The position numbers were made by a program, and so were the translations under genes. Source: a virus. Taken from it: a stretch of 26,514 nucleotides of DNA. Below are positions 8,055 through 20,763 of this stretch, one piece after another; position 1 is the stretch's first letter; the number at the start of each line of letters is the position of its first letter. The notes under the pieces were generated by a model, which made no database searches, was not told where the DNA came from, and saw nothing but the letters and a program-made list of their open reading frames with translations. Location of the stretch: positions 1-26,514 of the IMG/VR virus record IMGVR_UViG_3300009774_000298. One strand, 5' to 3'.

Positions 8055-8089
8055 GAGTCATCTAGCTTAAAGATGGCTCTTTTATTTTT
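8055..8089 (+). terminator. intrinsic terminator
   Basis: GAGTCATCT (8055-8063) pairs with AGATGGCTC (8071-8079): nine pairs with one G-T wobble and a 7-nt loop. The T-rich tract TTTTATTTTT follows at once. It ends the transcript of the small broken gene and separates it from the phage region. Confidence 0.88.
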
Positions 8090-8133: not shown

Positions 8134-8162
8134 TTTACAGAACAGTAGTTCTGTTTTATAAT
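8134..8162 (+). promoter_or_regulatory. sigma-70-type promoter with a LexA-like box in its spacer
   Basis: TTTACA (8134-8139), a 17-bp spacer and TATAAT (8157-8162) form a near-consensus promoter. The spacer and the end of the -35 hold ACAGAAC (8137-8143), AGTA, GTTCTGT (8148-8154), a perfect 7-bp dyad whose core GAAC-N4-GTTC matches the Gram-positive LexA (SOS) box. A bound repressor there would block polymerase. The gene downstream is the Com-like zinc ribbon at 8216. Confidence 0.75.
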
Positions 8163-8215
8163 GAGCATACGGAATAGGCTACAGGAATGTGCGGAAAATG
8201 AAGGAGAGGTATGGT

Positions 8216-8392
8216 ATGAACGAAACAGTGAAGTGCCCCAGCTGCAAACGGCGGCTGTTTGATAAATTAGATGATACTAGTGGTGTGATTGAAATTAAGT
8301 GTCCCAATTGTAAAACAGTGCTTAAAATAAAATTAGAACGAGGAATTGAAAAGAAATTATATAAATCTATACCGAGCAAAGGATCCGATTAA
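8216..8392 (+). CDS. Com-like zinc ribbon protein
   Basis: This 58-aa protein has two knuckles, CPSC (C7, C10) and CPNC (C29, C32), with KRRLF after the first and GVIEIKCPNCKTV around the second. That is the layout of the Mu Com family, whose founding member binds mom mRNA and switches on its translation. A zinc-binding nucleic-acid-binding role is likely; the target here is unknown. The start is ATG 8216 because AAGGAGAGG (8201-8209) is correctly spaced; an in-frame GTG 8189 and ATG 8198 lie upstream or too close to that site. It is a single-gene unit between the LexA-box promoter and a strong terminator. Com genes often sit near DNA modification genes, and a methyltransferase lies 14 kb downstream here. 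Confidence 0.75.
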   Translation: MNETVKCPSCKRRLFDKLDDTSGVIEIKCPNCKTVLKIKLERGIEKKLYKSIPSKGSD

Positions 8393-8417: not shown

Positions 8418-8470
8418 AAATCGCCGGATAGCTACTTTAATGCAAAGTGGTTATCCGGCGATTTTTTATT
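8418..8470 (+). terminator. strong intrinsic terminator
   Basis: AAATCGCCGGATA (8418-8430) is the exact complement of TATCCGGCGATTT (8452-8464), a 13-bp GC-rich stem. A short inner helix ACTTT/AAAGT sits in the loop, and a T-rich tract (8462-8470) overlaps the stem end. It isolates the Com-like gene from the early operon. Confidence 0.93.
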
Positions 8471-8569: not shown

Positions 8570-8893
8570 ATGAGACCAAATGAAAGGCGCATGGAGATCA
8601 TGAAGACTTTAAATTTCAGAAGACATGAAACCATGAGCAATCTGGCATTTGAGTTTGGTGTCAGCATTAGAACCATTGTGAATGACATAGACTACTTATC
8701 GCTTTCTTACCCGCTGGAGACCATGTGTGGACGATATGGTGGAGGAATTCAGGTATTAGAAGGGTTTCATATGGACCAGAAATACCTGAAGTCAAATCAG
8801 AAGGAGCTTCTTGAAAGACTAGGTGCACAGCTTTTAGGATCAGATCTTCTCGTCATGCAATCCATCATGAAGGACTTTGCTCTCACAAAATAA
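8570..8893 (+). CDS. DeoR-type helix-turn-helix regulator
   Basis: This 107-aa protein's N-terminal 60 residues form an HTH_11/DeoR-type winged helix: RRMEIMKTLNFRRHETMSNL followed by the recognition part VSIRTIVNDIDYL. YGGGIQV forms the wing. The C-terminal tail is short and has no ligand-binding domain, unlike full DeoR proteins (about 250 aa). It is the first gene of the long early operon. ATG 8570 follows a near-perfect AAAGGAGGTGA site with slightly wide spacing. It may regulate the adjacent dyad at 8495-8523, which is inference. Confidence 0.8.
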   Translation: MRPNERRMEIMKTLNFRRHETMSNLAFEFGVSIRTIVNDIDYLSLSYPLETMCGRYGGGIQVLEGFHMDQKYLKSNQKELLERLGAQLLGSDLLVMQSIMKDFALTK

Positions 8894-9319: not shown

Positions 9320-9622
9320 ATGAATGAAACATATCTAAATTTAGCAGAAGGGTTCGAAAAAGTGGCAGCCGGGTTAAGAGACCTAGCCAAATCAAGTAAT
9401 ACCATTGCTGCAAAAAAAGTTGTGGAGGAGGTTCTCAAAGAAGAAGTGAAGGAAGAACCAACAGTAAATATTGAGAACGTCAGAGCAGTGTTGGCTGATA
9501 AGAGCAGAAACGGAAAGACAAAAGACGTAAAGGCACTACTCATGAAATATGATGCTGGAAAGCTCTCAGATGTTAAACAAGAAGACTACAGGAGACTTCT
9601 GTCAGATGCCGAGGTTCTTTAA
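9320..9622 (+). CDS. conserved small phage protein (often misnamed rRNA biogenesis protein Rrp5)
   Basis: This 100-aa protein has a helical N terminus, an acidic/lysine-rich linker (EEVLKEEVKEEP), and a C-terminal motif VRAVLADKSRNGKTKDVKAL followed by KYDAGKLSDV and YRRLLSDAEVL. That C-terminal pattern recurs in replication-module proteins of Bacillota phages, which from memory are often annotated as Rrp5-like without evidence. The function is unknown; a DNA-related or scaffold role is only a guess. Its TAA overlaps the ATG of the next gene by one base (TAATG), so the two are translationally coupled. Confidence 0.7.
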   Translation: MNETYLNLAEGFEKVAAGLRDLAKSSNTIAAKKVVEEVLKEEVKEEPTVNIENVRAVLADKSRNGKTKDVKALLMKYDAGKLSDVKQEDYRRLLSDAEVL

Positions 9623-10749
9623 TGGGGACTCATGCAAGGTTCTCCCCATCATCAGCGAGTAGGAGAATACACTGTCCACCATCGCTCATCCTCGAAGAAC
9701 AGTTTAACGATGAAGAGTCTATCTTTGCGGCAGAAGGATCCGCAGGTCACGAGTTGGCAGAGCATCTCATCAAAAAGTACCTCAAGCTTAGAACCAAGCG
9801 ACCGGTATCCGAATGGTACACTGATGAACTCCTCGAGGCTGTAGAGTCCTATGTGTCTTATGTTACTGGTGAGATTGAAGAGGCAAAGAGAAGCTGCAAG
9901 GCTCCGATCATGATGGTGGAACACAGAGTGGATGCATCGGAGTATGTAGAGGAGTGTTTTGGAACAGCAGACATGGTAATCATCACTGAGAACCTGGTTC
10001 ATATCATAGACCTCAAACTGGGAAGGGGTGTAGAAGTTTCTGCAGAAGAAAACCCGCAGCTGATGATCTACGGATTAGGCGTTCTTTCTATGGCGGAACT
10101 ACTCTACGACATCGAGGAGGTAAGACTCACTATCTTTCAGCCAAGGCTCAACAATATGAGCTCCTGGGACATTGATCCAAAGATGCTCAAGAAGTGGGGA
10201 GAGGAAGTCTTGAAGCCAAGAGGAGCTATGGCACTAATGGGAGCTGGAGAGTTTTCTTCAGGTAGCTGGTGTCGGTTTTGTAAGGCAAGAAAACAGTGTA
10301 GAAAGAGAGCAGAAGGTTTCCTGGAGCTGGCCAAGATGGAGTTTAAAGAACCATCACTATTGTCCGATGCGGAGATTGCAGAGATTCTAAGTGTCGCAGA
10401 TGATCTTTCCAAGTGGGCATCGGACCTATACGGCTATGCTCAAGAAGAAGCCATCCTCAGAGGGAAAAGCTTTCAGGGATTCAAGCTGGTGGAAGGGAGA
10501 AGTATCCGCAAGTACTCCAGTGATGAAGATGTGGAAGAAACCGCAAAGAAGGCTGGTTATGAGGACATTTATAAAAAGACCCTGGTTCCCATCACAGAAA
10601 TGGAGAGGCTCATGGGTAAGAGCGAATTTAAGAGGATCTTGGGACATCTGGTTTATAAACCGGATGGCAAAATCACATTAGTACCCGAATCAGATAAACG
10701 AGAAGAACTTATTAATACATCCGCACAGACGGAATTTCAGGAGGAATAG
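9622..10749 (+). CDS. DUF2800 protein, Cas4/RecB-like PD-(D/E)XK nuclease
   Basis: This 375-aa protein carries the RecB/Cas4-type layout: AAEGSAGHELAEHLI (H43), GTADMVII (D117), IIDLKLGRG (D130, K132), and a QLMIYGLG motif (Q146). A cysteine set, C18 and C217/C220/C226, resembles the four cysteines that hold an iron-sulfur cluster in Cas4 and AddB. A 5'-to-3' or structure-specific nuclease role in phage recombination is likely by family. It lies immediately upstream of the DUF2815 ssDNA-binding-like protein, the usual pairing in these phages. Confidence 0.85.
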   Translation: MGTHARFSPSSASRRIHCPPSLILEEQFNDEESIFAAEGSAGHELAEHLIKKYLKLRTKRPVSEWYTDELLEAVESYVSYVTGEIEEAKRSCKAPIMMVEHRVDASEYVEECFGTADMVIITENLVHIIDLKLGRGVEVSAEENPQLMIYGLGVLSMAELLYDIEEVRLTIFQPRLNNMSSWDIDPKMLKKWGEEVLKPRGAMALMGAGEFSSGSWCRFCKARKQCRKRAEGFLELAKMEFKEPSLLSDAEIAEILSVADDLSKWASDLYGYAQEEAILRGKSFQGFKLVEGRSIRKYSSDEDVEETAKKAGYEDIYKKTLVPITEMERLMGKSEFKRILGHLVYKPDGKITLVPESDKREELINTSAQTEFQEE

Positions 10750-19713: not shown

Positions 19714-20763
19714 ATGATTTTTACGAGTGAGCAAGTATCTTGTGGACATCCAGATAAAATATGCGATCAAATTTCAGATGCTATTGTTACAGACTGCTTA
19801 AAACATGATAAGAAATCTAGAGTAGCTGTGGAATGCATGATAAAAGATTATAATATCATGATCGCTGGAGAACTTTCTTCAAGCCATGACCCGAGTTATC
19901 AGAAACTCGTAGAAAAAGTATTGAAGAAGATTGGTTTAGGAAATATTGAATTATATAGAGTAAATGTCATGATCAGCAAACAGAGTTCTGATATTGCTCT
20001 TGGAGTTGATGGGCCACAGGGTGCTGGGGATCAAGGGATGATGTTTGGTTATGCAACCAATGAGACACCAGAATACCTTCCGATACCTTATGCAGTAGCA
20101 ACTTATGCACTAAAGCTCCTAAGAGATCTCAAGAGTCCCTTCCTTCTTCCTGATGCAAAGAGCCAAGTTTCCTATGATTATGAAAGTGGAAGAATCGAAA
20201 CGTTTCTAATCAGTACCCAACATAAAGAAGATTTTACCGTGAACATGATCAGGCCGATCGTGGAAGCAGTAATGGAGACAGCTGCAGCAGACTATGGTTT
20301 AAACACAGATTTCAAGAAGCTGGTCAATCCAACCGGAAGATTTGTCATCGGATCGTCCTTTGCTGACAGTGGACTAACCGGTAGAAAAATCATAGCAGAT
20401 ACCTATGGTGGGATGTGTCGTCATGGTGGCGGTGCTTTCTCGGGTAAAGATCCGACTAAGGTTGATCGGAGCGGTGCATACATGGCCAGGAAGATCGCTA
20501 AGGACATTGTAAAGCAGGGTTATGCTGATCGCTGTGAAGTGCAGCTCGCTTATGCCATTGGTGTGGCAGAGCCTGTATCCATAGCAGTGGACGGCTTCGG
20601 TACCGAGAACATAGATCTAAAGATGATTGTAGAGAATATCAAATCAAACTACGATATGACACCAGCAGGCATCATAAGATTTCTGAAACTTCTCGAGATC
20701 GACTACAACGAGGTGTCCAGCTACGGCCACTTCGGTAAAAAACATCTTCCCTGGGAGGAGTAG
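19714..20763 (+). CDS. metK: phage S-adenosylmethionine synthetase (MetK)
   Basis: This 349-aa enzyme makes SAM from methionine and ATP. Signature motifs are intact: GHPDKICDQISDA (about 11-23), VDGPQGAGDQGMMFG with the GAGDQG ATP motif (about 103-108), and GGGAFSGKDPTKVDRS (about 238-253). The protein is shorter than cellular MetK (about 380-400 aa), with the differences spread over loops and the C terminus; this compact form is typical of phage copies. It stands just before the HNH gene and upstream of a DNA methyltransferase, so its likely role is to raise SAM for phage DNA modification. The ribosome site is GAGGTGAGAG. The upstream leader may regulate translation. Confidence 0.93.
   Translation: MIFTSEQVSCGHPDKICDQISDAIVTDCLKHDKKSRVAVECMIKDYNIMIAGELSSSHDPSYQKLVEKVLKKIGLGNIELYRVNVMISKQSSDIALGVDGPQGAGDQGMMFGYATNETPEYLPIPYAVATYALKLLRDLKSPFLLPDAKSQVSYDYESGRIETFLISTQHKEDFTVNMIRPIVEAVMETAAADYGLNTDFKKLVNPTGRFVIGSSFADSGLTGRKIIADTYGGMCRHGGGAFSGKDPTKVDRSGAYMARKIAKDIVKQGYADRCEVQLAYAIGVAEPVSIAVDGFGTENIDLKMIVENIKSNYDMTPAGIIRFLKLLEIDYNEVSSYGHFGKKHLPWEE

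Follow-up and report, generated by a model that had tools for sequence, protein, structure and literature searches.

The question raised by this locus is whether a LexA-type box in the promoter of a small phage gene, com, places that gene under direct control of the host response to DNA damage. The window, that is, the whole stretch of DNA analyzed, is the 26.5-kb virus contig of the source record. A sequence-only reading had described a box, a 7-bp dyad and a near-consensus promoter at positions 8134–8162, and all three were found there. The promoter is of the sigma-70 type, with TTTACA (8134–8139) and TATAAT (8157–8162) separated by 17 nt on the + strand (11/12 consensus), and no other promoter-like site in the 5 kb scanned scored as high (runners-up 9/12). 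Its spacer is filled by the GAACAGTAGTTC core (8140–8151, + strand), an exact match to GAAC-AGTA-GTTC and a predicted LexA (SOS) operator core. The dyad ACAGAAC-AGTA-GTTCTGT, with 7-bp arms, spans 8137–8154 around this core. A palindromic GAAC-N4-GTTC core that overlaps the promoter is what is seen in Gram-positive LexA operators. We also considered the dyad as a terminator hairpin and rejected this, given its position between −35 and −10 and the retention of the core, not the flanks, in relatives.

A rival explanation is an accidental GAACN4GTTC in an ordinary promoter. In Markov-1 simulations of the window sequence, exact boxes occurred at a mean of 0.29 per window and about one quarter of simulated windows held at least one (P = 0.25); the window itself has a single exact copy, the one in the com promoter. 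An exact box within the spacer of a promoter matching at least 10/12 positions was expected only 0.005 times per simulated window. The box alone is thus unremarkable, whereas the box at a promoter position is not. Because the association is also seen in two Com clades in addition to the window (see below), we regard coincidence as extremely improbable. An exact search with the window promoter sequence gave no match.

The sequence-only reading had also placed a lone Com-like gene between two terminators, and this was borne out. An intrinsic terminator upstream (8055–8079, + strand; hairpin, z −3.3) isolates the com promoter. The 5′ leader (8163–8215, + strand), with the SD sequence GGAGAGG at 8203–8209, leads to the ATG at 8216 of a gene for a 58-aa zinc-ribbon protein with a CPxC...CPxC pattern (8216–8392, + strand). 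A strong intrinsic terminator (8418–8464, + strand; 20-pair stem and T tail) closes the transcript; folding of an 86-nt stretch containing it gave −34 kcal/mol (z −7.2), and nearly all relatives have a terminator 3′ of com. With its box, its promoter and a terminator on either side, com would be a small regulator gene in its own predicted LexA-controlled unit, as in the Gifsy/Tum type.

The best family match of the product was PHROG 6417, “translational regulator” (E 3e-9), followed by PHROG 13819, gpCom (E 0.0015), and Pfam Zn_ribbon_Com (PF10122; E 0.008), where the score of 16.0 bits is below the cut-off of 22.9. Residues C7, C10, C29 and C32 are invariant in the alignment of Com homologues (A3). 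The AlphaFold model is a small all-beta domain (pLDDT 76) with a disordered C-terminus, and both CxxC pairs fall in its confident part, so that alignment and model agree on two putative zinc-binding CxxC pairs in a small zinc-ribbon fold. A fold search with the model returned nothing significant, the best hit being a LysW-like zinc ribbon (E 0.46). In Mu, com stands beside mom, the target of its translational activation; among the window ORFs scanned no mom gene was recognized. No Xre-type repressor was seen adjoining com in the window. Rfam searches of the window and of six related loci returned nothing.

The order of genes in the window is the end of rlmD (22–396), a type I restriction-modification (R-M) system, two ORFs, com and a co-directional early region (HTH_11, DUF7768, DUF2800, SSB, DNA polymerase, helicase, VRR-NUC and SNF2). 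The location first given for com, the left edge of a prophage, therefore holds only approximately, since the R-M system and two ORFs separate the host rlmD end from com. In a complete related Dorea phage, com starts the rightward genes, with a restriction gene to its left and the integrase at the far end. The first gene of the Heliusvirales-type early operon encodes a 107-aa HTH_11/DeoR-like protein (8570–8893, + strand; Pfam HTH_11 E 4e-5, just under the cut-off), with homologues at 39–57% in the Heliusvirales records examined. The DUF2800 exonuclease-like protein, a marker of the early region (9622–10749, + strand; Pfam E 3e-143), shares 60–67% identity with Heliusvirales phages. In gene order and in its proteins the early region agrees with phages recorded as Ca. 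Heliusvirales, and the replication genes shared by that group (Pol I, helicase, nuclease and two DUFs) have homologues here in order. The window ends near a small-terminase-like gene; the capsid and portal genes fall beyond its 26.5 kb. The phage region also carries a complete S-adenosylmethionine synthetase gene (19714–20763; three Pfam domains), and DNA methyltransferase genes are present in the same phage. Assignment of a host through the rlmD fragment was rejected: the best match was 73%, in a genome with ∼27% GC at the locus compared with 43% for the window fragment.

To learn whether box and gene belong together, Com homologues were gathered by protein-only searches and then by a profile run on bacterial genomes, and each locus was scanned for boxes. 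Viral contigs scanned with the window Com alone yielded nothing; homologues emerged through the profile searches. Bacteroidota loci recovered in the Com scan (L046, L050 and L051) were not true Com and were excluded. The set comprised 39 distinct Com-like proteins. With the window counted, and with three loci of the set that had been fetched by a box-containing DNA pattern left out, 19 exact boxes lay in the 16 kb made up by the 450 nt upstream of com, compared with 1 in the other 227 kb (binomial p 8e-22, treating related loci as independent). Because the loci are related, this count overstates the independent events, and the occurrence in two clades and the window, in three geometries, is the safer measure.

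By clade, the box preceded 19 of 22 Com genes of the CPCCKNKRLFD type (three of the 22 having been fetched by the box-containing pattern) and all five of the CPVCHQRLFD-like type. The RAFD/RMFD type (0/9) and another group (0/2) had none, showing that LexA control is not universal for Com. Such RAFD/RMFD-type genes (L010–L015, L017, L018, L022 and L036) lie upstream of DUF2800, and E. coli and alphaproteobacterial LexA-type boxes, sought upstream of the box-less Com genes, were not found either. Many leaders of this type are short, with GCTAAC/GCTTAC repeats before the SD. The window Com forms its own long branch on a Com tree that such short proteins leave unsure.

Phages of Dorea, Agathobacter and Coprococcus encode a Com ∼50–55% identical to that of the window, and there TTGACA-NNN-GAACN4GTTC-GA-TATAAT precedes com. 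Com prophages are also carried by culturable hosts such as Butyrivibrio sp. VCB2006 and Lachnoclostridium phytofermentans KNHs2131. The box shifts by ∼3 nt within the spacer: it directly follows the −35 in the window, lies 1 nt after it in L039 and 3 nt after it in most loci. Promoters of the second clade read TTGACA-17-TATTTT, with the box just after the −10, at +1. As this box is outside the spacer, the motif does not arise from its place in the promoter. Among relatives GAAC and GTTC are fixed and the central N4 varies freely; a floating box with variable N4 is, on this comparison, the behavior expected of a LexA operator. Three of the box-positive loci in these clades have AAAC in place of GAAC, and clostridial LexA accepts the mirror form, GAAC-N4-GTTT (PMC4234289).

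A blind search of viral contigs with a promoter-plus-box DNA pattern returned 11 contigs, three of which lead into com (L028, L032 and L033). Two others agree with these in leader and in type of first gene (L029 and L030), one shares leader and terminator without com (L023), three carry a TCGCTAC element with other small genes (L026, L027 and L031), and two are unrelated (L024 and L025). In L009 (about 118–945) there are two tandem com-like genes, the second preceded by AAACGTACGTTC in its promoter. The first ORF of at least 80 aa after com in relatives often encodes an HTH_3 repressor-type or a sigma-region-4 protein, which places com at the regulatory start of the phage. Taken together, the recurrence of the box–promoter–com arrangement across distant Com homologues supports com as a LexA target, and DNA damage probably switches com on directly.

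The box may nevertheless be a real operator for another protein, such as a phage repressor with LexA-like specificity, or for LexA acting with a phage cofactor. HTH_3 or other HTH regulators are indeed encoded beside com, and in Bacillus phage GIL01 the phage protein gp7 assists LexA at its SOS box (PMC4551915). The downstream regulators, however, differ completely among loci (HTH_3, sigma-like or no Pfam match) while the box core is constant, and the lexA promoters of related host genomes carry the same core. Using model TIGR00498, lexA was found in 20/20 related genomes (12 bearing Com and the 8 nearest by rlmD). Within 300 nt upstream of lexA, a GAACN4GTTC-like box with at most one mismatch was present at 20 of 22 loci, in genomes that are related but may not include the host of the window. 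Indirectly, this speaks against the objection that the host LexA might use a different box. The 12-nt core of the window, already read as a Gram-positive SOS box, is moreover identical, together with the preceding CA, to the C. difficile sspB site CAGAACAGTAGTTCCA, a site that fell into the high-affinity group when binding of C. difficile LexA was measured by SPR (PMC4234289). We consider control by a phage repressor or by a LexA–cofactor pair very unlikely, and host LexA remains the preferred occupant of the box.

What Com does once made is a separate matter. In the SOS-promoter operons of relatives, a conserved RNA hairpin (GGUCAG...UCCCUU...CUGGCC) precedes the SD of the first gene, and its stem covaries more than in shuffled controls (0.427 vs. 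0.287; 0/500 shuffles). It was seen in L005, L007, L023, L028, L032–L034, L037, L041–L049, L097 and L098, and Rfam had no match to it in the loci searched. A Mu-like Com would be an SOS-made, RNA-binding translational activator or autoregulator, acting in relatives on its own leader hairpin. The motif bound by Mu Com lies in an RNA hairpin (PMC6483171), and the covarying hairpin with its TCCCTT loop element in the leaders of related com operons would offer such a target. The Mu Com motif CC(N)2-3GAG, however, is absent from the hairpin loop of the relatives, the short leader in the window has no hairpin (z −0.6), and both the lack of a recognized mom in the window ORFs scanned and the sub-threshold Zn_ribbon_Com score speak against a Mu-type system. 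We consider this account of Com action fairly unlikely.

The same type of promoter was also observed with other genes. In L023 and L079 the SOS promoter, leader and terminator are the same but com is missing from between them, and a 300–340 aa HTH-like protein follows. The Heliusvirales phages L097, L098 and L100 share this leader behind a 12/12 promoter whose SOS-type box reads GAAC- or AAAC-N4-GTTC; there a 52–104 aa protein (IESNRII..) replaces com and is followed by HTH_3 and M78 (ImmA-like) genes. Repeated elements of genome G012 (L081, L086, L089 and L090) have an SOS-box promoter followed ∼30 nt further on by a second box. The promoter of L081 leads into an IS1595-like transposase gene, so that LexA would here control an insertion sequence. 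Three more repeated elements of that genome (L084, L087 and L088) combine GAACN4GTTC-GATATAAT promoters with a long conserved region that is non-coding and possibly intron-like.

A further reading has the SOS transcript run through leader, com and terminator, with the Com made from it acting as an antitermination or attenuation factor that would allow polymerase to read on through the terminator and reach the regulator and early genes. The strong terminator directly after com, in the window and in nearly all relatives, would fit this role, as would the recurring elements that relatives carry after the −10 and before the terminator. The first of these, TCGCTAC..TAGGA, directly follows the −10 in the hairpin-leader loci; the com leader of the window holds AGGCTACAGGA (8176–8186), whose weak resemblance to the corresponding element TCGCTACNNTAGGA is suggestive only. 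The lambda PL-N-tL1 layout resembles this placing of leader elements and terminator around com. We know of no antitermination factor of Com-like fold, however; genes after com have their own promoters in at least some relatives, and the Com model showed no structural match to a transcription factor (best LysW, E 0.46). We judge antitermination by Com to be quite unlikely.

Sequence and comparison show that (i) box, promoter, gene and terminators are present in the window, and their association is conserved in relatives; they suggest that (ii) host LexA probably represses com directly, DNA damage releasing an early phage regulator that would help to start the lytic program. From the comparisons we infer binding of LexA in the host of the window, induction by the SOS response and the action of Com. 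In a lysogen, RNA polymerase would be blocked by LexA sitting in the −35/−10 spacer, and com would stay silent. DNA damage would lead to RecA-driven cleavage of LexA and free the com promoter; judged from the sequences, this block and its release upon damage are a well-supported step. com would then be read as a short transcript ending at the 8418–8464 terminator, and the zinc ribbon would be among the first phage proteins made and would help to launch the lytic program. It would most likely bind RNA (or DNA) of the neighboring regulatory and early region, in a role functionally similar to that of the SOS-induced antirepressors of other phages. In our analysis, a regulator or antirepressor in this broad sense, starting lytic growth, ranks above Mu-like RNA binding and above antitermination. 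More speculatively, a widespread group of gut prophages of the Ca. Heliusvirales type might use host LexA directly as the repressor of their first lytic gene, com, with a structured leader and the terminator forming an RNA-based switch, working by antitermination or through translation, that takes the place of a classical CI-type switch or overrides it; we hold this broader scheme to be unlikely.

The proposal ties DNA damage in the host, in a concrete and testable way, to the first regulatory gene of a gut-phage group that is common, and offers a clue to the function of a “translational regulator” family of Firmicutes phages. GAACN4GTTC in a com promoter would be a simple signature with which to predict SOS-inducible members. 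No description of induction control in Heliusvirales-type phages was found in the literature searched, and the founding paper of the Heliusviridae mentions neither LexA nor SOS nor a repressor (PMC9226167). The sequence-only reading had taken the arrangement as undescribed. This stands for the Com-like target, since no description of a LexA-controlled Com-like gene was found in the literature searched, but not for direct LexA control of phage regulators, which is known from Gifsy (PMC3121763) and GIL01 (PMC4551915); CTX has been named as a further LexA-controlled phage (PMC3121763).

Among the known systems, the antirepressor operons of the Gifsy prophages share with com a small regulator, direct control by host LexA (predicted for com) and a terminator in front; they lie outside the immunity region and link induction to SOS (PMC3121763). 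They differ in protein class (no zinc ribbon is known there), in having an E. coli-type SOS box and in their Salmonella host, and antirepressor activity has been shown for them, whereas the com of the window is known from sequence. At P1/dinBox1 of GIL01, as proposed for com, a box of the GAACN4GTTC type serves host LexA in repressing an early phage promoter (PMC4551915). Unlike in the com promoter, the GIL01 box comes after the transcription start and is joined by a second half-site and the cofactor gp7; the replicon is linear and non-integrating, and the target genes are unrelated to Com. The sspB operator of C. difficile, which has the same core as the window and is bound by LexA in vitro, belongs to a chromosomal gene, not a phage regulator, and its box is annotated at +34 from the gene start (PMC4234289). 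Mu Com (PMC6483171; PHROG 6417/13819, PF10122) is, like the window Com, a small phage protein with two CxxC pairs; in Mu, com adjoins mom, which Mu Com activates, whereas com in the window stands alone behind an SOS-type promoter. With the Ca. Heliusviridae/Heliusvirales gut phages (PMC9226167) the window shares the early DUF2800, SSB, Pol I, helicase, VRR-NUC and SNF2 proteins, which are ∼55–81% identical in the closest records. Heliusvirales-type phages of Dorea, Agathobacter and Coprococcus carry com with an SOS promoter, and several members lack com or the box. LexA-controlled phage regulators were thus already known; what is new here is the Com-like LexA target and its conservation in Heliusvirales-type phages.
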